Assembly (NCBI GenBank): GCA_026710795.1 | Contig: JAPOQK010000104.1 | Coordinates: forward strand, 1-32,521 | Origin: Candidatus Poribacteria bacterium | GTDB lineage: Bacteria; Poribacteria; WGA-4E; WGA-3G | Length of the DNA stretch: 32,521 nucleotides | Direction: 5' to 3' | Program-made: the position numbers and the translations under genes | Shown: piece after piece, positions 13,068-24,312 of the stretch | How positions within the stretch are numbered: the first letter of the stretch is position 1 | Layout: the number at the start of each line of letters is the position of its first letter | Notes under the pieces: generated by a model | Told to the model about the DNA's origin: nothing | What the model saw: the letters and a program-made list of their open reading frames with translations, nothing else | The model's database searches: none

Positions 13068-14171
13068 TTACCAATCCACAACAGAACCGTCATCTGGATG
13101 GTAGGATTCAGGATTTCTCCAATCGTGGTCTATTTTATCTTCAAGTGCATCTTCATCCAATTCAATACCTAAACCTGGACCTGTGGGTAATTCAACAAAA
13201 CCATCTTTGAAAACAAACGGATTCTTGAGATAACCTTCACCAAGTGTTGTATGTTCTTGCATCACGAAGTTTGGAATTGAAGCATCTAATTGGATACAGG
13301 CTGCCAACGAAATAGGACCCAGTGGGTTGTGTGGCGCGATACCTCCATAATACGCTTCTGCCATTCCAGCAATGATACGTACTTCATTGATACCCCCAGC
13401 ATGGCATAGGTCTGGCTGTAGAATGGATGCCGCCTGTTTCTCCAATATCTCACGGAATCCCCACTTCGTGAAAATCCTTTCACCAGTCGCTATCGGTAAG
13501 TGAGTGCTACGAGCGATTTCTGCAAGCGTATCAACATTCTGACACTGTATCGGTTCTTCAACAAACATCGGTTGATAAGGTTCTAATGCCTTAATTAACA
13601 CCTTTGCTGTTTGTGGACTGACAGCACCGTGAAAGTCAATTGCTAAATCTACCTCTGTACCTGCCGCTTCTCGTAGCGCAGCAAAGTGATTAACGGCTTT
13701 ATCAATAAAAGCTTTATTCTCAATAATACGTGCAGGTCTACCTCCAGCAACACCTGTTTTAAATGCAGTGAACCCTTTGTCAATCCATTCTTTAATTCCG
13801 TCTGGATCGCCGCCCCCTTTATACAATCTTATACGATCGCGAGTCGGTCCTCCAAAAAGTTGATATACAGGCACACCCAGGGATTTACCCGCTAAATCCC
13901 AAAGTGCTTGCTCAACTCCGCTAAGTGCACTCGTGAGAATAGGACCTCCACGGTAAAATGCATGACGGTACATTGCTTGCCAATGATGTACTACACGTCT
14001 TGGGTCTTCTCCGATAAGATAAGGTGCGAGTTCATCAACTGCTTGCGCACACGTTTTTGCGCGTCCTTCTAAGATCGGTTCACCGAGACCAACTAATCCT
14101 TCGTCTGTATGAATTTTCAGGAATAACCAACGAGGCTGTACAAGAAAAGTTTCTAACTTTGTTATTTTCAT
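13068..14171 (-). CDS. dgoD: D-galactonate dehydratase-like enzyme (enolase superfamily)
   Basis: The 367-residue mandelate-racemase/muconate-lactonizing-type protein closely follows the E. coli DgoD pattern from memory (LKI-TDEGLVG-GEP, EGRA, YRGGPIL, LQPDL-HAGG, APHNPLGP, GLGIE). Metal ligands are D179, E205 and E231, and catalytic bases are H181 (DFHG) and H281. All are offset by four from the E. coli numbering. The reaction would be dehydration of D-galactonate, or a related aldonate, to the 2-keto-3-deoxy acid in the cytoplasm. No KDG kinase or aldolase gene is nearby; two TIM-barrel isomerases follow instead, so the true substrate may differ. AAAGGTGA lies 8 nt before the ATG, and a promoter with an operator candidate sits upstream. 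Confidence 0.83.
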   Translation of the reverse strand: MKITKLETFLVQPRWLFLKIHTDEGLVGLGEPILEGRAKTCAQAVDELAPYLIGEDPRRVVHHWQAMYRHAFYRGGPILTSALSGVEQALWDLAGKSLGVPVYQLFGGPTRDRIRLYKGGGDPDGIKEWIDKGFTAFKTGVAGGRPARIIENKAFIDKAVNHFAALREAAGTEVDLAIDFHGAVSPQTAKVLIKALEPYQPMFVEEPIQCQNVDTLAEIARSTHLPIATGERIFTKWGFREILEKQAASILQPDLCHAGGINEVRIIAGMAEAYYGGIAPHNPLGPISLAACIQLDASIPNFVMQEHTTLGEGYLKNPFVFKDGFVELPTGPGLGIELDEDALEDKIDHDWRNPESYHPDDGSVVDW

Positions 14172-14942: not shown

Positions 14943-14983
14943 AGGTTATTTTACTTATATTTTGAATTAAACACTTCATTTTA

Positions 14984-15015
14984 TGCAACCTTTCCATATT
15001 CTTTTGAGTCTTTGC
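14984..15015 (+). promoter_or_regulatory. ECF-type promoter candidate of the first sigma-fusion gene
   Basis: TGCAACCTTT (14984-14993) and GTCTTTGC (15008-15015) recur upstream of the second sigma-fusion gene with the same 63-bp distance from TGCAAC to the GTG start. TGCAAC/GTCT is a plausible ECF -35/-10 pair, with 18 bp between the two. Because both genes encode sigma factors, autoregulation is the simplest reading. The claim rests on the two-copy comparison only. Confidence 0.5.
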
Positions 15016-15046: not shown

Positions 15047-17116
15047 GTGGAACACACAGACGTTGAACTGATAAAACGGACATTGTCAGGTGATCAAGAT
15101 GCATTTACCGTCTTGGTTCGGAGATATGATAAGCGGGTGCACGCGCTTGCATGGCGTAAAACTGGTGATTTTCATATTGCCGAAGATATAACACAAGATA
15201 CCTTCCTGAGAGCATACAGGAATCTTGGAACACTGAAAAATCCTAATCTGTTCGCTGGATGGCTATATGTCATAGCGAATCGTTTGTGTGATACATGGTT
15301 TAAAAGAAGTAGACCACAGTTACAATCATTGGAAGCACTTCCTACGGCTGAACTTGAGGAGACTCTTTATTCAGATTTTACTATGAAACAACGTGAAAAG
15401 CGTGCATCGGAACAGCGAATTGACCTTGTAAAACGGCTCCTTCAAAGATTGCCTGAGAGTGAACGAATCGTGATTACACTCCATTACCTTGCTGAAAGTA
15501 CAATTAAAGAAATAAGTGAATTTTTAGGAGTGTCTCAAAATACCGTGAAAAGTCGTCTCTATCGAGCCAGACAACGTTTACAAAAGGAGGATAACATGCT
15601 ACGAGAAACCTTGGGTAGTTTCCAACCCACAACGAGCTTAACAGAGAATATAGTCAGAGTTCTTAAAGAAACTGGAATCCCGATTGACTCTACTGCCCCA
15701 TCTGGTAACAAACCGCTTGTGCCGTGGGTAATTGCAACTTCAACCTTTATCATAATCGCTCTGATGCTTGGACTTGGAGCAAATATACTTGCACGGTTTC
15801 AACAACCGTATAGTCTTGATGCTACATCTGAAATGACTGTAGACATAGTTGATGCATCCGTAATGTTGAACTTGCCATCTAATCCAGAGGTGCAAAATCA
15901 AGTTGGCAATATCAATGCTCCAGATAAAAGCCAAGGGACAAGTCAGAATCCTGATGCGAAGTTGTCCTCCTCTGCATCAGGTAAAATCGTTGATGAGGTA
16001 GGTAATCCGGTGAATGATGTCAGAATTGCAGTAATGCCTGTCGAATATATCAAAGGAGGATGGTATCCAAAAGATGTAGATGAAGATAGTCGTTGGCCTG
16101 ATGACCCGTTGGCATTCCCAGCACATGCCAATAAAGACGGTAATTTCGTCATTAATTCTTTTGACCAAGGCACTGTCTTATTAGGAGTCCTCCCTTATTA
16201 TAAACCAGAATATCAAATTGTAAAAGTTAAAATAGGGGGTATGAACTTTTATTCCGTAAAAGAAATTTGGGGTGGTATTCTTTTAGCACCAGAACCGGGT
16301 AAAGAGATAAAAAACGTTGAGGTTACTGTGCGACATTTTCTGAAAGTTCACGGGAAAGTTCAAGAAGTAAACGGAACCGCAGTATCCAACGTACGCTTAG
16401 AATTCGAGGTAACACAACTAAGTTTGGATAGAGAAGGACCTATATTAGAAAGTAGTCGGGGGTTCGGAGTCAGGACAGATGTCAAAGGCAATTTCGAAAA
16501 ATTTGTACCAAACTATACCAATGGAACCGCATTTTACATTATGTCTATAAAATATCAAGAACGTATAGCGATGTCAAAACCAGTAGTAATTAAACATGGA
16601 GATCGAACACACGAAGCAGTCTTCACATTCAATGAACCATTAATACCATCTCCACCCGAAGATGTTAAACGCGAAAATCAAACAAGTGCATCAGGCAATA
16701 GCGGTGTTGATGCAGTTGGTGTTTGGGTAGTCAATCCTGAAAATGGACATGCCTACAAAAAAATCCGATGTGATAGTCCTGAGGATGCAATGGTACAAGC
16801 CACAGATGAAGGTACACATCTCGTCACCATTAATAATGAAGCAGAAGAGAAATGGTTAAGAAAAGTTTTCAACACGAATGGTATCTTAATAGGACTTAAT
16901 GATATTGAGGTAGAAGGACAGTGGCAGTGGCGCAACGGTGAACCTGTGGAATATACCAACTGGGATAAGTTTGAACCAAAGGATACTGATAACGGTGATG
17001 AAGATTATGTTGTCCTTACTTCGCAAGGATGGAAAGACATTGGTGAGGAAAGTATTGGATGGCGCTGGATTCGCACTGCTCTCCTTGAAAAAGATAATTG
17101 GAGCATTGACAAGTAA
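15047..17116 (+). CDS. Membrane-tethered ECF sigma factor with C-type-lectin-like ectodomain
   Basis: The 689-residue protein has sigma region 2 at about 8-88 (AEDITQDTFLRAYRNL) and region 4 at about 124-180 (LPESER, ISEFLGVSQNTVKSRLYRAR). A cytoplasmic linker follows, then one membrane helix at 226-246. Outside lie a conserved juxtamembrane block (251-293), carboxypeptidase-regulatory-like sandwiches (about 310-530) and a C-type-lectin-like domain (558-683). In the lectin, WQWRNGEPVEYTNW is typical. The calcium-site motif EPN reads EPK and WND reads WKD, so sugar binding is uncertain. GTG start with GGAG 7 nt upstream. An internal AAGGAGG-ATG at residue 184 could give a sigma-free product. 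The 57-bp gap to the next lectin gene suggests an operon. Sensing surface or environmental glycans is inferred. Confidence 0.85.
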   Translation: MEHTDVELIKRTLSGDQDAFTVLVRRYDKRVHALAWRKTGDFHIAEDITQDTFLRAYRNLGTLKNPNLFAGWLYVIANRLCDTWFKRSRPQLQSLEALPTAELEETLYSDFTMKQREKRASEQRIDLVKRLLQRLPESERIVITLHYLAESTIKEISEFLGVSQNTVKSRLYRARQRLQKEDNMLRETLGSFQPTTSLTENIVRVLKETGIPIDSTAPSGNKPLVPWVIATSTFIIIALMLGLGANILARFQQPYSLDATSEMTVDIVDASVMLNLPSNPEVQNQVGNINAPDKSQGTSQNPDAKLSSSASGKIVDEVGNPVNDVRIAVMPVEYIKGGWYPKDVDEDSRWPDDPLAFPAHANKDGNFVINSFDQGTVLLGVLPYYKPEYQIVKVKIGGMNFYSVKEIWGGILLAPEPGKEIKNVEVTVRHFLKVHGKVQEVNGTAVSNVRLEFEVTQLSLDREGPILESSRGFGVRTDVKGNFEKFVPNYTNGTAFYIMSIKYQERIAMSKPVVIKHGDRTHEAVFTFNEPLIPSPPEDVKRENQTSASGNSGVDAVGVWVVNPENGHAYKKIRCDSPEDAMVQATDEGTHLVTINNEAEEKWLRKVFNTNGILIGLNDIEVEGQWQWRNGEPVEYTNWDKFEPKDTDNGDEDYVVLTSQGWKDIGEESIGWRWIRTALLEKDNWSIDK

Positions 17117-17173: not shown

Positions 17174-18583
17174 ATGATACGTTTGTTACATAAGTACAAG
17201 ATTTTCGTGTTTCTTATAATGATTTTGACGCTTTTCGCTCAATTGACTTTACAATCTAATGCTCAAGAAAAGACTGGTACTGTTAGTGGACGGGTAGTTG
17301 ATATAGACGGACACCCCGTTCCAAAGTTGCCAATTTATATTGCCCCCTTGGGAATTGGTGGTGGGTTTACAGATACCGTATATTTCCCAAATCAATATTC
17401 TCTATTACATCAAACTCAGACCGATGGCGTAGGTCGATTTACAATATCCGGAATACCTACGGGTTCTTTTTACTTCGGAGTACTTCCTTACAACATTAAC
17501 AAGCAATTACCACATGACTTTGAAAAAGATCTTGAACATTTTCTTCATGTATGGAATTCTCCAGGGTATACCTCAGAATATATTGATGCCCTTATCTATA
17601 ACAACTTCGGTTTAGCAGCAAGTGATTATGAACCTGATGTCAAAATTCAATCTCTACGTGTACAAGGTATAAATTTCTACACTACACCAGGTACGGAAGA
17701 GATTGCTTTCGGTATTGACACAGGAACTCACATTGAAAATGTTGAAGTTATAATCAAACCTCGAATGAGAGTTCAAGGACGTGTTCTATTTAATGATGGA
17801 ACACCACTTGCTAATGCGCGATTGAAGATACGTGCTGATTATCGTAGTGAAAGTAGTAGTGGAGGAACACGTGCCCGACCTTGGACAGATGAAGAAGGAT
17901 ACTTCGTTACATATCTAAATGAAAATTACGGGGCACCAATCTATACGTATACAATTTCTGTGGAATATCAGGACCTCGAAGAAACGGCAGAACCTATCCA
18001 ACTTGCACCAGGAGATAGGCTTGATAACTTAACATTTACACTTGACAGTCCCCCAATTGCTCCCAAACCAATACCCCCAATAACAAAACCTGAAAACAAT
18101 GAACTTGAACCTTCAACAAAACCTAAATCATCAAAGAAACCGGTGTCTAATGAGGTTTGGATTGTAAATCCTGCGAACCGACACGCCTATAAGAGGATTC
18201 TATGCGAAACTGTTGATGATGCTATTGTGCAAGCAACTGATGAAAAAGCACATCTCGTTACCATAAACGACGAGAAAGAGCAAAAATGGTTAGGAGCAGT
18301 ATTCGGACATGAATTGTATTGGATAGGACTCAGTGATACCAAGAAAGAAGGTGAATGGCAGTGGCAAAACGGTGAACCTGTTAAATATCAAAACTGGTTA
18401 CCGGACGATTATTTTTCTGAAACTTGGGATGCTGATGAAAGAGACAATGTGGTCATTACATTTGAGGATGGAAAATGGTATGCTGTTAGTCAGAATAGTG
18501 TAATCGTGAAGATGACTAAGATGGCAATCATTGAAAAAGCAGATTTGAAGATAAATCTGCCTGAGAAAAAGAAGCGACCGTAA
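17174..18583 (+). CDS. Secreted beta-sandwich plus C-type-lectin-like protein
   Basis: The 469-residue protein has a signal peptide (residues 1-30, ending SNA) and then two carboxypeptidase-regulatory-like sandwiches (about 36-312: SGRVVDIDGHPV and QGRVLFNDGTPL). After a Pro/Lys linker comes a C-type-lectin-like domain at 328-455 (VWIVNPANRHAYKR, YWIGLSD, WQWQNGEPVKYQNW). The EPN and WND calcium motifs are absent. The sandwich part is homologous to residues 448-709 of the sigma-fusion protein at 18928-21057, and the lectin to that of the upstream sigma protein. AAGGAG lies upstream of the ATG. It is probably co-transcribed with the upstream sigma gene and could be a soluble or surface partner for its ectodomain. 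Confidence 0.82.
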   Translation: MIRLLHKYKIFVFLIMILTLFAQLTLQSNAQEKTGTVSGRVVDIDGHPVPKLPIYIAPLGIGGGFTDTVYFPNQYSLLHQTQTDGVGRFTISGIPTGSFYFGVLPYNINKQLPHDFEKDLEHFLHVWNSPGYTSEYIDALIYNNFGLAASDYEPDVKIQSLRVQGINFYTTPGTEEIAFGIDTGTHIENVEVIIKPRMRVQGRVLFNDGTPLANARLKIRADYRSESSSGGTRARPWTDEEGYFVTYLNENYGAPIYTYTISVEYQDLEETAEPIQLAPGDRLDNLTFTLDSPPIAPKPIPPITKPENNELEPSTKPKSSKKPVSNEVWIVNPANRHAYKRILCETVDDAIVQATDEKAHLVTINDEKEQKWLGAVFGHELYWIGLSDTKKEGEWQWQNGEPVKYQNWLPDDYFSETWDADERDNVVITFEDGKWYAVSQNSVIVKMTKMAIIEKADLKINLPEKKKRP

Positions 18584-18723: not shown

Positions 18724-18864
18724 ATGTTAAAGCCTCAAATACTAAGACTTTCTATTAAACTTAGAATATGCTATTCTCAACACACCAGAAACATATCTTA
18801 TATCAATAAAATCTTCTGATATAAGTTAATTTACTCAAACACTTTTCAATTTCTGCTTATTTTA

Positions 18865-18897
18865 TGCAACCTTTTCGTCCTAAATAGGTGTCTTTGC
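18865..18897 (+). promoter_or_regulatory. ECF-type promoter candidate of the second sigma-fusion gene
   Basis: TGCAACCTTT (18865-18874) and GTCTTTGC (18890-18897) match the motif pair at 14984-15015. The gap between TGCAAC and GTCT is 19 bp here instead of 18, but the TGCAAC-to-GTG distance is again exactly 63 bp. Sequence between the boxes differs, so the boxes are conserved above background. Confidence 0.5.
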
Positions 18898-18927: not shown

Positions 18928-21057
18928 GTGAAAAACAGTGACAGTGAACTAATTCATAGAATATTATCTGGTAACCAAGAGGCATTTACTAGCTTAGTAA
19001 GTAAATACCAAAAACGTGTGCATGCGCTAATATGGAAAAAAACGGGTGACTTCCACGTTGCTGAAGAGATAACTCAAGACACCTTCCTAAGAGCATATAG
19101 AAAACTTGGATCACTTAAAAATCCAAATCTGTTTGCTGGATGGCTTTATGTAATTGCAGATCGCTTGACTAACACCTGGTTTCAGAAGAAGAGACCAAGG
19201 ATGCGGTCCTTAGATGCAATGACACAAGGTCAAATAGACGAATTATTTTACTCTAAATATGTGGAAAAACATAATGAAGAACTTGCATCGGAAAGACGCG
19301 TTGACCTTGTTAAGCGGCTACTAAGTAAATTGCCTGAAAGTGAACGGATTGTTATAACACTGCACTACCTTGCAGGAAGTTCAGTTAAAGAAATTAGTGA
19401 ATTTTTAGGTGTTTCGTTGAACACGGTAAAGAGTCGTCTACATCGAGCACGAAAACGATTACAGAAGGAGGATAACATGGTACGCGAAACCTTGGGTATT
19501 TTACAACCTATAACCAACTTAACCGAAGATATAATGAGAACAATTAAGGATACCGGAGCACACATTGATTCTGCAGTGCCTTCAGGCAGCAGACCGCTTG
19601 TGCCGTGGGTAATTGCCACGTCAATGGTTCTTTTTGTTGTATTAATGCTTGGAATCGGAGCAAATAATTTTGTGCAATTTCAGCAACCGTATAGTCTTGA
19701 TTCTACATCTGAAATGACTGTAGACATAGTTGACGCATCCGTAATGTTGAACTTACCATCTAATCCAGAGGTGCGAAATCAAGTTGGCAACATCAATGCT
19801 CCAGATAATAACGATGAAACAAATCAGAACATTGAAACCAACGTATCCTCTTCTGCCTCTGGTAAGATAGTTGATAATAATGGAAAACCTGTCAATGATG
19901 TCCAGGTAGCACTTTTTCCTCTCAAAGATGGCGATGGAGCTTGGTTTCCAATTACCATCGGAGACCAAAGCAGTATTCACGAGGGTCTGCAAGCGTTTCC
20001 TGCGAAAATCAACCGCAAAGGCAATTTTACGATCAAAGACTTCAATGATAAGGTGATGAAGTTAGGATTACTCCCATACTATAGACCAGTGGAGAGGATA
20101 GTAAAGATACAAATAGGTGATCTCTATCTATTTCCTAATAAATTGGGTAGTTATAATGGAGTGGTGCTTCAAACAAAACAACAAGAAATCAAAAATGTCG
20201 AAATTACTGTCCAAGACGAAAAACATAACATAGCAAGAACCAGACAGAAATTAACTCATAGAAATTCGTCAAGTATAAGCGGACGTGTTGTTGATACAGA
20301 TGGAAATCCAGTTGTTGATTTGCCTATATTCATTTCACCACATTTAATCCCAGAAGAAGCAGAAGAAGGTATTTATTTGACTGCTATTCCACCAGAGGGT
20401 TTGCTAAATTTTTGTCGTGGTCAAACTGATGTTGATGGTCAGTTTACTATAACAGGTGTTACTTCAGTACCACAATATCTCAGTGCTCTTCCATACAACA
20501 TCGATCAGCGTCTACCTGAAGATTTTGAGACGATCTTAAAAAAGTTTATTTCACGTACTTATCAACTCCCATTTCACAGATCAAAGCCCTATATAAAAGA
20601 ATTTGAGGAATACGGTTTCGGTACAGATCATTATGATTATGAACCGGATGTTGAAATTGTTTCTCTCACAATTGACGGAATAACCTATTATCCACATGCT
20701 GATTTTGATGAAATTCCTTTTGGGATAGTACCAGGTAAACATATTAAAAATGTGGTAGTTACCGTGCAGCCGAGAGGATATGTTAAGGGACGAGTCATTT
20801 TTAAGGATGGAACACCGCTTACCAATGATCGTATATTACTCAGTTATAACTACAGCGGAAATAATAGGCGTGGAAGTTCTACAGAGAATAAACTTTGGGT
20901 AGATGCCGATGGTTATTTTATTCATTATCTTGATGAGAAAGATTCTCATTTCTCATACCAGTTTACGATTGAGTATCAAGGACATAAAGCAACTTCTACT
21001 CCAATCACACTTAAACCCGGACAACGGTATGACGATCTAATATTTAGGCTGAAATAG
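18928..21057 (+). CDS. Membrane-tethered ECF sigma factor with duplicated carboxypeptidase-regulatory-like ectodomains
   Basis: The 709-residue protein is a paralog of the sigma-lectin protein and aligns without gaps over residues 1-330. Sigma regions 2 and 4 (1-180) are 125/180 identical, and the juxtamembrane block 251-293 is 41/43 identical. One membrane helix spans about 226-246. The ectodomain has a first sandwich module (310-430) and a second module (448-709) homologous to the secreted protein at 17174-18583. There is no lectin domain. GTG start with GGAG 7 nt upstream. An internal AAGGAGG (19465-19471) stands 5 nt before an in-frame ATG at residue 184, as in the paralog. The likely role is a one-component transmembrane transcription regulator whose signal and targets are unknown. 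Confidence 0.84.
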   Translation: MKNSDSELIHRILSGNQEAFTSLVSKYQKRVHALIWKKTGDFHVAEEITQDTFLRAYRKLGSLKNPNLFAGWLYVIADRLTNTWFQKKRPRMRSLDAMTQGQIDELFYSKYVEKHNEELASERRVDLVKRLLSKLPESERIVITLHYLAGSSVKEISEFLGVSLNTVKSRLHRARKRLQKEDNMVRETLGILQPITNLTEDIMRTIKDTGAHIDSAVPSGSRPLVPWVIATSMVLFVVLMLGIGANNFVQFQQPYSLDSTSEMTVDIVDASVMLNLPSNPEVRNQVGNINAPDNNDETNQNIETNVSSSASGKIVDNNGKPVNDVQVALFPLKDGDGAWFPITIGDQSSIHEGLQAFPAKINRKGNFTIKDFNDKVMKLGLLPYYRPVERIVKIQIGDLYLFPNKLGSYNGVVLQTKQQEIKNVEITVQDEKHNIARTRQKLTHRNSSSISGRVVDTDGNPVVDLPIFISPHLIPEEAEEGIYLTAIPPEGLLNFCRGQTDVDGQFTITGVTSVPQYLSALPYNIDQRLPEDFETILKKFISRTYQLPFHRSKPYIKEFEEYGFGTDHYDYEPDVEIVSLTIDGITYYPHADFDEIPFGIVPGKHIKNVVVTVQPRGYVKGRVIFKDGTPLTNDRILLSYNYSGNNRRGSSTENKLWVDADGYFIHYLDEKDSHFSYQFTIEYQGHKATSTPITLKPGQRYDDLIFRLK

Positions 21058-21341: not shown

Positions 21342-23402
21342 ATGTTCCATTCATACTATACTCATATATTGATATTCCTAACAAGTATTGTATTATTAAG
21401 TACTATATCTTCTCAATCTCTTGCTGAGACCTTTTCTGGTCGTGTTGTTGACGAAGAAGGAAATCCTGTTGCAAATGTTTCAGTAGCACTTCATGATAAT
21501 AATCTCAATGCAACTGCACTATCAGAAACGGATGAATCAGGCACTTTCTCTATATCTGCTACAAGTTCTCCAGTTGCACTCATGTTACATCCTGAGAAAA
21601 AAGTAGAATATTTTATTCGTAAGGTTAATATTTCTGGACTAATCTTATATCCAGACCAACATGCAAATTCTGATGGTGATATTATATTTACAATGGCAGA
21701 AGATGCAGAGATAAAAGATGTGGAAATTACAGTACGTAAACGAATATCAATCAGAGGGAGAGTACTTGACACTGACGGGACACCATTGAAAAACGTAGAG
21801 ATAGTTCTAAGATTTAGTGGAGAAAATATAAATGAAAAGCGTATTATTGAGTGGAGTACAAAAACAAATCTTGATGCTAAGGGATATTTCGATGTATATA
21901 TCAATCACACAGGTTTATATACAGTATCCGTTAAATATCAAGCACAGTTAGCTACTGCAGATAATGTGCAAATTATGGAAGAAAACAAAAATCTAAATCT
22001 TGTGTTGATGCTTGGTGGTACAACTAATATAAAGAACAATAATATCAGTGTCCTTCCAGTACCAATTGTAGTTACTCAACCTGAACTTCCTGAACCACCT
22101 CCTGCAATTCCTCCTGATACCGCAACAGAATCAAAGGAAAAATCAATATTCTCTGGACAAGTCGTGGACACAGAGGGGAAAGTTATTTCAGGATTCCAAT
22201 TAGGAATGGTCCCTGTACGTTACATACATGGTAGGGCAATACCTGAGACTGAATCGTTTAATGCAGGTAATGTATCTGAAACCCAGATACCTCGTTCTAC
22301 ATTACTATCACAAATCAATTCATCGGGGAATTTCTCTTTCAACAATATTGAGTCTGGACTTTTTCAACTATTCATAGCACCTGAGAATACCTCCATTGAT
22401 GCTGACAATATCACATCAAGAATTCAGTACTTATCCCATTTAGATTCCGAATATGAATTGCAATTGATTAAAATTGGACAAATGATCTTTACAAACCAAG
22501 CAGTTTTACCCCGGTTTTCCCTAAAACAATTTGTGTTTGCTATTACACCTGGTGCATCCGTAGAGAATGTGGAAATCATCGTGAAAAAGAAATCTCAAAT
22601 ACGCGGTAGAATTATCTACGCTGATGGATCACCCGTGAAAAACAAAAGCGTAAAGTTAAGAGTAAAAGAACCGCAAAATAGAGAACTTGGACCAATTCGG
22701 TTAGGGGATGCGGATGGCTATACATTAAGGAGAGACATACGGACAGATAATTACGGTGATTTTTCAATATTTGTTGATAAACCTGGTGAATATTTTTTCC
22801 ACGTAAAGCTCATAGTACTTTCAGCAGAAGCTGGACCAATTACTATGAAAGACAAGGCACAACAGAATGAACTACTATTGAAGTTAAATGGCACTATGAT
22901 TTTTCCTAATACCTCTACCGATGAAATACAACCAAACCAGCAGGGATTTTCCGCAGATGAGCAATTACCCGATGTATGGATTGTAAACCCTACAAATGGA
23001 CATTCATACAAACTGGTAGCGTGTGAAGATTGGTTTGACGCACATCGTCAAGCGACACAGAACGGTGCACATTTACTCTCAATAAACGATGAAGCAGAAC
23101 ATAAATGGATTATGGAACTGTATGGTAGTGGTTTCTTTTGGATTGGACTCAATGATATAAATGAGGAAGGTGAATGGCAGTGGGATGGTGGAGAACCTGT
23201 TACTTATGAACATTGGGAATCTAATGAACTCTTTCCAGATGATTCACTGACTGATGAAGAAAAGGATTACGGAGTCATGAACCTTAACGGTGCGTGGCAA
23301 AAAACTGCACAACAAGCAACAATCTGGATTATGACACGTCAAGCAATAATTGAAAATGACGGACGACTTTCAAATATACAAATTAATACCCTACCTGAAT
23401 AA
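21342..23402 (+). CDS. Secreted multi-sandwich C-type-lectin-like protein
   Basis: The 686-residue protein has a signal peptide (about 1-28, ending SLA). Four carboxypeptidase-regulatory-like segments follow, opening at about 31 (FSGRVVDEEGNPV), about 137 (RGRVLDTDGTPL), about 265 (FSGQVVDTEG) and about 415 (RGRIIYADGSPV). The C-terminal lectin-like domain spans 545-672 (VWIVNPTNGHSYK, FFWIGLND, WQWDGGEPVTYEHW). The lectin shares the same entry motif as the two upstream lectins, while canonical EPN/WND calcium residues are not seen. AGGAGGA lies 7 nt before the ATG. It has its own promoter region, so it is a separate unit in the sigma/lectin cluster, perhaps a target or a soluble ligand-binding partner. 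Confidence 0.82.
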   Translation: MFHSYYTHILIFLTSIVLLSTISSQSLAETFSGRVVDEEGNPVANVSVALHDNNLNATALSETDESGTFSISATSSPVALMLHPEKKVEYFIRKVNISGLILYPDQHANSDGDIIFTMAEDAEIKDVEITVRKRISIRGRVLDTDGTPLKNVEIVLRFSGENINEKRIIEWSTKTNLDAKGYFDVYINHTGLYTVSVKYQAQLATADNVQIMEENKNLNLVLMLGGTTNIKNNNISVLPVPIVVTQPELPEPPPAIPPDTATESKEKSIFSGQVVDTEGKVISGFQLGMVPVRYIHGRAIPETESFNAGNVSETQIPRSTLLSQINSSGNFSFNNIESGLFQLFIAPENTSIDADNITSRIQYLSHLDSEYELQLIKIGQMIFTNQAVLPRFSLKQFVFAITPGASVENVEIIVKKKSQIRGRIIYADGSPVKNKSVKLRVKEPQNRELGPIRLGDADGYTLRRDIRTDNYGDFSIFVDKPGEYFFHVKLIVLSAEAGPITMKDKAQQNELLLKLNGTMIFPNTSTDEIQPNQQGFSADEQLPDVWIVNPTNGHSYKLVACEDWFDAHRQATQNGAHLLSINDEAEHKWIMELYGSGFFWIGLNDINEEGEWQWDGGEPVTYEHWESNELFPDDSLTDEEKDYGVMNLNGAWQKTAQQATIWIMTRQAIIENDGRLSNIQINTLPE

Positions 23403-23607: not shown

Positions 23608-24312
23608 ATGCAAAAACAGATTCTTTTGATGAGTGTGCTGTTGTTAATGGTTGTGTCCTTTGCTTCAGGACATCTAATAGATGAAAAACTTGAGAACTTT
23701 CAATATAACGCGGAACTTGTTTCTGTTGCTCCAATCGTTGATGGATATCTGGATGACCCTGTATGGGAAGATGTTTTACCAGCAAAACTAAAACAAGAGA
23801 TCATTACAGGACAGGAGTGGCATGATTCATACGATTTCACCGGATCATTCAAAGCGGTCTGGCGTAGCGGGTTCCTTTATATCGCAATAAAAATACAAGA
23901 CGATCAATTTGAAAAACATCAATCTAAACTCTTTAGAGAAGATCAGTTAATCCTCCACGTTGACGAATATCATTATCAAGGTAAGGATGATATGTTACGC
24001 TATGAAATTCCAGTTGGCGTAGAAGAAAGTGCCTTAAAATCATCTTTAACGTCTGTGGCTTGGGCAAATGATGGACAAACATGTGAATTGAGATTTAGAC
24101 TCGGTGATGTTGCATCAAAAGGAAATACAATCGGTTTTGGTATTGCCTATGACGACATAGATAATGGACAACTACAAAATAGAATCGCATGGGCACCGTA
24201 TGACTACATGCAAGAAAACCAAAATCTCCCTGACCTCGTTTTCACAGCGAGGATTAATCCAAATGCACAGCAAAAACTGATCAGATGGGGGCAAATTAAA
24301 AGACTTTACTAA
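23608..24312 (+). CDS. Secreted CBM9-like (DOMON-related) carbohydrate-binding protein
   Basis: The 234-residue protein has a signal peptide (1-21: MQKQ then a Leu/Met/Val-rich core, ending FASG). The opening APIVDGYLDDPVWEDV (41-56) is the standard CBM9-type signature, followed by FKAVWRSGFLYIAIKIQDD and LHVDEYH strands and an FGIAYDDIDNG segment. CBM9-like domains bind sugars or, in related DOMON folds, heme, and which applies here is unknown. AGGAGG before the ATG and a strong promoter (23545-23574) suggest good expression. Its position after the lectin cluster fits a role in extracellular glycan binding. Confidence 0.8.
   Translation: MQKQILLMSVLLLMVVSFASGHLIDEKLENFQYNAELVSVAPIVDGYLDDPVWEDVLPAKLKQEIITGQEWHDSYDFTGSFKAVWRSGFLYIAIKIQDDQFEKHQSKLFREDQLILHVDEYHYQGKDDMLRYEIPVGVEESALKSSLTSVAWANDGQTCELRFRLGDVASKGNTIGFGIAYDDIDNGQLQNRIAWAPYDYMQENQNLPDLVFTARINPNAQQKLIRWGQIKRLY

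Follow-up and report, generated by a model that had tools for sequence, protein, structure and literature searches.

Can a single bacterial gene encode a transcription factor, its membrane anchor and an outside sensor, and, if so, which proteins does it make? The question is raised by a gene of the window, by which we mean the whole 32,521-nucleotide stretch of DNA from a Candidatus Poribacteria bacterium that was analysed. A sequence-only reading had described sigma regions 2 and 4, one membrane helix and a lectin-like domain in a single frame. This description and its coordinates hold in Pfam and hydropathy analyses, and the HMM search that it had proposed matched Sigma70_r2, Sigma70_r4_2 and Lectin_C.

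Architecture and distribution of the fusion

The features of the gene and its neighbours are as follows.

15047–17116, plus strand: full-length gene for the sigma–membrane–lectin fusion (689 aa, GTG start, uninterrupted frame)
15113–15310, plus strand: Sigma70 region 2 (residues 23–88, Pfam)
15425–15580, plus strand: Sigma70 region 4 (residues 127–178, Pfam)
15716–15772, plus strand: membrane helix (residues 224–242, hydropathy)
15797–15907, plus strand: conserved outer stalk, FQQPYSLDA... (residues 251–287), common to paralogues with differing ectodomains
16802–17038, plus strand: C-type lectin domain (residues 586–664, Pfam; sequence matches in the PDB)
17174–18583, plus strand: paralogue with CarboxypepD_reg and Lectin_C and without sigma, with a hydrophobic (signal-like) N-terminus, 57 bp after the fusion
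18928–21057, plus strand: second sigma–membrane fusion (709 aa, CarboxypepD_reg ectodomain)
21342–23402, plus strand: second paralogue with CarboxypepD_reg and Lectin_C and without sigma (Pfam)

In the 689-aa protein, Pfam matched Sigma70_r2 with an E value of 1.1e-12 and Sigma70_r4_2 with one of 7.4e-17, and a sequence search matched the sigma part to the structures of SigW and RpoE. The helix is the single hydropathy peak. In the stalk, Q252, P254 and Y255 are invariant across 48 sequences. Pfam found no match between the stalk and the lectin; this stretch resembles carboxypeptidase-regulatory and Ig-like beta domains (SdrD and pilin repeats), with Foldseek E values down to 5e-8 but TM-scores of about 0.2. 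Lectin_C was matched with an E value of 3e-10 (41.2 bits against a cut-off of 22.6). Compared by sequence with PDB chains, the lectin part is of the mannose-receptor type, the best match being the phospholipase A2 receptor (E 2.5e-23); the macrophage mannose receptor was also matched (E 1.6e-19). The predicted model over residues 558–683, to which the C-type-lectin fold had been assigned, has block-mean pLDDT values of only 26–65. The mean pLDDT values of the models, 46 for the N-terminal part and 56 for the outer part, are too poor for reading contacts between the sigma and its tether. The calcium and sugar motifs of C-type lectins are EPN and WND, together with paired cysteines. At these places the protein reads EPK and WKD, and residues 557–689 contain one cysteine. 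The domain exceeds the C-type lectin profile cut-off, and it lacks intact sugar-binding motifs and paired cysteines.

A frameshift as the origin of the fusion, which the sequence-only reading had considered, is ruled out: matches over at least 680 of the 689 residues in one open frame were found in at least 11 of the 58 relatives (orthologues or paralogues, among the matches listed), so the gene is not a frameshift artefact. The architecture is also widespread. The 4.7-Mb assembly (94% complete) contains 62 Sigma70_r4_2 matches, and a genome search found 34 copies of the block that runs from residue 184 through the helix and the stalk, all 34 with a sigma region 4 match at most 60 nt upstream on the same strand. 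When 35 sigma fusions were scanned jointly, all had sigma regions 2 and 4, 18 had Sortilin/BNR-type propellers and 11 had WD40 domains; one of the 35 (L130) is without a clear helix. Single scans gave other ectodomains, namely Lectin_C (the window gene at 15047 and L143), CarboxypepD_reg (the window gene at 18928) and an inactive M16 domain (L134), and recognised nothing in the ectodomain of L142:18208. A search of the phylum found the block in 67 of 84 genomes. It occurs in all 58 genomes of the same family and in 2 of 2 and 7 of 9 genomes of other families of the order, and is absent from the 3 genomes of a third family and from the 12 genomes outside the order (10 in the rest of the class and 2 outside it). 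Genomes of the same family carry between 1 and at least 54 copies, and at least 71 related loci listed are titled Candidatus Poribacteria or uncultured Poribacteria. A match in G009, listed with one TAA as a possible split gene, was discarded as such, the sole stop in the translated stretch being its end.

Other genes of the window include a galactonate-dehydratase-like enzyme upstream that exceeds its NCBIfam cut-off (13068–14171, minus strand) and a small CBM9-like protein after the lectin cluster (23608–24312, plus strand). Tandem arrays of genes of the CarboxypepD_reg and C-type-lectin type were seen in relatives (L167, L168 and L169), and in L167 and L168 one member bears the sigma–helix block where the others have a hydrophobic N-terminus. 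A gene of another genome (L040, G017:C206) has a sigma part 79% identical to that of the window gene, followed after the join by oxidoreductase-type sequence, as judged by eye, and no membrane helix. In the genome of the window itself, L152:1689–5873 (minus strand) is a 1394-aa frame that combines a divergent ECF-like sigma with an FtsZ/tubulin domain and DNA polymerase III alpha domains.

A probable internal start at the sigma/receptor join

At the point where the sigma part gives way to the membrane part, both fusions of the window contain the elements of a second translation start.

15584–15590, plus strand: internal Shine-Dalgarno (SD) sequence AAGGAGG (duplex energy −11.6, against −6.4 at the gene's own start)
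15596–17116, plus strand: predicted short product, a sigma-less membrane receptor (506 aa, ATG at residue 184)
19465–19479, plus strand: internal SD and ATG of the second fusion (duplex energy −11.7, against −6.4 at its own start)

Positions 15584–15598 read AAGGAGG-ATAAC-ATG, in frame and directly after region 4. What we take to be the 16S 3′ end, TGGATCACCTCCTT, contains CCTCC and has one occurrence in each of 4 genomes checked. We collected 193 fusions that are distinct over the sigma-to-stalk region, a few of which may be edge-truncated copies; 36 of them are from the genome of the window, as against the 34 blocks of the genome search. The join codon is ATG in 179 of the 193, the other 14 having TTG (3), ATA (3), CTG (2), CTT (2) and CTC, ACA, GTG and CTA (1 each). 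The SD duplex energy is −8 or lower at 157 of the 179 ATGs, and the last GGAG ends 6 nt before the ATG in 149 fusions. Over all 193 joins the mean energy is −10.2 kcal/mol, compared with −7.3 at the genes' own 5′ starts, 182 of which could be located, and −3.0 at 2827 other in-frame ATGs. Synonymous recoding with the codon usage of the genes gave a mean of −4.7 (sd 0.22, 50 rounds), a null that ignores relatedness and so overstates significance, as the copies share descent. An SD match of at least 6 nt was found at 79% of the joins, 11% of the recoded ones and 1.5% of the other ATGs.

Because the copies are related by descent, a column-rank control and a pairwise control were added. In the former, which itself shares descent, Lys180 (AAG in 136 of 145) and Glu181 (GAG in 160 of 170) are the top two of 111 two-fold columns in the use of G/C-ending codons, the next-ranked Lys and Glu columns standing at 58% and 75%. 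In the latter, the 103 columns compared have a mean third-position identity of 59% among divergent pairs; Lys180, with 83%, is eighth of them, Glu181, with 77%, is lower, and several other columns equal or exceed these two. The pairwise control backs selection on the SD codons only mildly. In addition, the SD is weaker in the 10 rows whose join codon is not ATG, GTG or TTG (−4.9 versus −10.6, Mann–Whitney p 2e-6); the one row with GTG has a full SD. The SD is weak (above −6) at 18 of the 179 ATGs, 8 of these rows reading YEPM at the join, and among the 36 rows from the genome of the window, 27 have the ATG and 22 a strong SD. Predicted mRNA structure is lowest at and just after the join among 14 offsets, which partly follows low GC.

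Three sigma-less genes begin at the join ATG. In L172, the first codons of the sigma gene are kept, the rest is deleted and the old start is out of frame; an 825-aa WD40 frame opens at the join ATG (SD energy −10.3). L173 has a 1174-aa WD40 frame from the join ATG with a moderate SD (−6.2), and the upstream stretch read contains no sigma frame. The third gene, L118, has a 384-aa frame from this ATG (SD energy −11.6) and no Pfam matches. When blocks without sigma were sought in G009 and G034, the 14 blocks of G023 being left out, 2 of 54 had no sigma region 4 match upstream, both among the 20 blocks of G009. These genes demonstrate that a gene for the short form alone is possible, not that intact fusions make it. 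Taken with the conserved internal SD and ATG, they suggest that one gene probably makes two proteins, and the gene looks like a pair of sigma and membrane regulator that was fused in frame, with the regulator's own ribosome-binding site kept.

The internal SD might instead serve as a programmed ribosome pause that aids sigma folding or membrane delivery, only the full-length protein being made. The SD-like stretch of the window gene does lie about 40 codons before the helix, where pausing could help insertion. A pause, however, needs no nearby downstream ATG, yet the ATG and the strong SD tend to vanish together; moreover, the sigma-less genes begin at the join, and the low mRNA structure there resembles that of a start. 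We regard the pause as unlikely, and think it slightly less likely still that the internal start is an unused relic of neighbouring sigma and receptor genes that became fused. An SD in the 3′ end of a sigma gene and an ATG after region 4 are what a sigma/anti-sigma operon leaves on loss of a stop, and some members have lost the internal start; against this, the two SD codons rank highest of the 111 two-fold columns across divergent copies, and the SD at the join exceeds those at the 5′ starts in mean strength. Internal translation of a sigma-less receptor remains our preferred explanation of the join.

Further sigma fusions of the same genome are not membrane proteins. At a contig edge (L124:1–830, minus strand), a sigma continues in frame into the N-terminal end of the DNA polymerase III beta clamp, and an in-frame ATG after the sigma part is preceded by an SD (−10.8). 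L121, L123, L127, L140 and L141 join a sigma to an S9 peptidase, WD40 or unrecognised sequence, and in most of them the sigma part is followed by an in-frame ATG with an SD before it. Judging from these genes, the two-start layout may reach beyond the membrane family.

A promoter motif upstream of the fusions

Both fusions of the window are preceded by a motif of the type recognised by ECF sigma factors.

14983–15014, plus strand: ECF-type promoter motif before the sigma–lectin gene (−35 TGCAACC, −10 GAGTC), kept in orthologues or paralogues (L021–L026 and L029–L031)
18864–18896, plus strand: second ECF-type promoter motif (TGCAACC...GTGTC)

The lectin group has a promoter variant of its own, TGCAACCTTT...G[AT]GTCTTTG, common to related genes. 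With up to 4 mismatches, this variant occurs in the window only before the two fusions (14983 and 18864). The exact lectin-type pattern with a spacing of 10–12 gave one match and none in the reversed control, and a shorter one gave 2 matches, equal to the 2 of the reversed control. Over the family, GCA[AC]C and [CT]GTC separated by any gap of 8–26 were found in 86 of 183 upstream regions (shuffle mean 4, maximum 9), and the gap was 17 or 18 in 86 of 93 counts. In the genome of the window, GCA[AC]C-N17/18-NGTC lies upstream of 25 of the 46 sigma fusions, membrane and soluble (shuffle mean 0.15, maximum 2), both window fusions being among the 25. By this pattern, the other 21 fusions and all 14 free-standing sigma genes are without the promoter. 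A stricter pattern matched 20 places genome-wide, versus 2 in the reversed control. Twelve of them are within about 70 nt upstream of sigma fusions, 5 are inside unrelated open frames of more than 200 aa, and 3 are elsewhere, one of these being followed after 126 nt by a WD40-type gene whose start looks signal-like. A loose pattern gave 8 further matches in the window.

Promoters with AAC and CGT and positive autoregulation are classic ECF traits according to PMC8103513. Set against the −35 AAC and −10 CGT, the window promoters read AAC and GAGTC or GTGTC, and NGTC is the −10 reading before the 25 fusions. Since the motif precedes the fusions themselves, the sigma parts are apparently active, many of them apparently under their own control, which suggests self-activation through their own promoters. 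We infer that the targets of each sigma are narrow.

Relation to known systems and a proposed mechanism

Sigma factors with fused membrane extensions are known, including one group with an outer carbohydrate-binding domain (PMC5826349). The earlier proposal is supported as far as it concerns a tethered ECF sigma whose outer domain probably has a sensory role, and this fits the known class. By the definition given in PMC8103513, ECF group IV sigmas have only sigma2 and sigma4 as promoter-binding domains, with a linker of fewer than 50 residues; in the window protein, Pfam places these two domains alone of that kind at residues 23–88 and 127–178, with a gap of 38 residues. The same text reports that a co-transcribed anti-sigma gene was dropped from the later ECF definition. 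The window fusion does not have that arrangement of a separate, co-transcribed anti-sigma gene; its presumed partner shares the frame of the sigma.

The nearest known systems share some features with the fusion. ECF52 (SCO4117 of Streptomyces coelicolor) likewise consists of an ECF sigma, a C-terminal membrane region and an outer, carbohydrate-binding domain, and is thought to be activated by proteolysis (PMC5826349, PMC8999054). It differs in having a zinc finger between the sigma and the helix, for which the poribacterial fusion gave no Pfam match, residues 184–223 of the window translation being free of cysteine; and it is described as exclusive to Actinobacteria, whereas the related loci found here, at least 71, are from Poribacteria. 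The poribacterial family is further set apart by its lectin, BNR and WD40 ectodomains, its copy numbers of up to dozens per genome and its conserved internal start. IutY of Pseudomonas putida (ECF243) similarly unites a sigma and a membrane-bound anti-sigma in one protein, and its sigma is freed by Prc and RseP (PMC8999054). IutY, however, belongs to an iron-starvation cell-surface-signalling system, whereas the poribacterial fusion has another sensor and no anti-sigma domain recognised by Pfam; a FecR-type extension was found neither in Pfam nor among the 25 of 100 NCBIfam matches listed. By the defining features in these sources, the poribacterial family thus fails to join the ECF52 and IutY groups, with no zinc finger, no FecR match and an origin outside Actinobacteria. 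In the SigI/RsgI systems of Clostridium thermocellum, paralogous membrane sensors for different substrates also control sigmas, with RseP involved, but RsgI is an anti-sigma protein separate from the sigma (PMC12203970). Poribacteria are described as rich in surface-type domains, WD40 among them, that are often accompanied by a membrane helix or a signal peptide (PMC3909097); the eukaryote-like repeat proteins of that account share such domains with the present family, but the word 'sigma' is absent from its main text. In the open-licence literature searched, we found no report of poribacterial sigma fusions or of an internal start in a sigma fusion, nor of a two-start design, exchangeable ectodomains at such a scale or self-promoters.

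On these grounds of sequence, we think it fairly probable that the gene encodes a receptor-type ECF sigma, one mRNA giving both a tethered sigma-receptor and a sigma-less receptor, with release by cleavage and self-activation. Sigma regions 2 and 4 would lie inside, followed by one helix, the family-wide outer stalk and an exchangeable sensor outside, here of the C-type-lectin type. Each mRNA would be translated into the tethered sigma-receptor and, from residue 184, the sigma-less receptor. At rest, the tether would hold the sigma off RNA polymerase. The sigma-less form, probably in excess, may act as a brake, partner or decoy; by binding the ligand or the sigma, it could set a threshold as a separate anti-sigma does. 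Engagement of the outer domain would bring about a cut in the membrane helix or close to it and free the sigma, as has been proposed for ECF52 and shown for IutY. An M50 protease is encoded in the genome, a family that was also matched in 14 of 14 control genomes. The freed sigma would then act on its own promoter (14983) and on what is presumably its own operon, including the lectin paralogue at 17174.

It is conceivable, though improbable, that the sigma acts at the membrane or as a mere DNA-binding tether and is never released, the lectin serving adhesion. The neighbouring lectin paralogues without sigma would fit such a role, but the ECF-type motif before the fusions suggests an active sigma, and the ectodomains differ while the sigma–helix–stalk block is kept. 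Some frameshifts are stimulated by SD-like sites. A +1 frameshift at the join, also or instead, which would end the sigma at an overlapping TGA and yield a soluble sigma, is very improbable and was dropped as the main reading: the SD-like site could stimulate it and 169 of 193 fusions read ATGA at the join, as overlapping genes do, but this overlap follows from a conserved Ile codon, the codon before the ATG varies (CCG, CCC, ACA, CAC, AAC and others) and offers no fixed slippery site, and the window gene has CTA after its ATG and hence no overlapping stop.

Returning to the receptor-type sigma with two products, we lean towards the view that this family of Poribacteria senses its surroundings at the cell surface by single genes, each giving a tethered sigma and its own sigma-less receptor. 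There would be 1 to at least 54 such one-gene, two-protein, self-activating units per genome, with exchangeable sensors; about half of this genome's sigma fusions would also have a near-private ECF promoter. If this is true, it would be a compact design of bacterial signalling, in which sensor, tether, transcription factor and a separate partner come from one gene, and the annotation made by gene callers would show a single product for genes that probably have two. The promoter motifs would offer a route to the regulons. The design would be of family scale, in an uncultured, sponge-associated lineage whose environmental sensing is little known.
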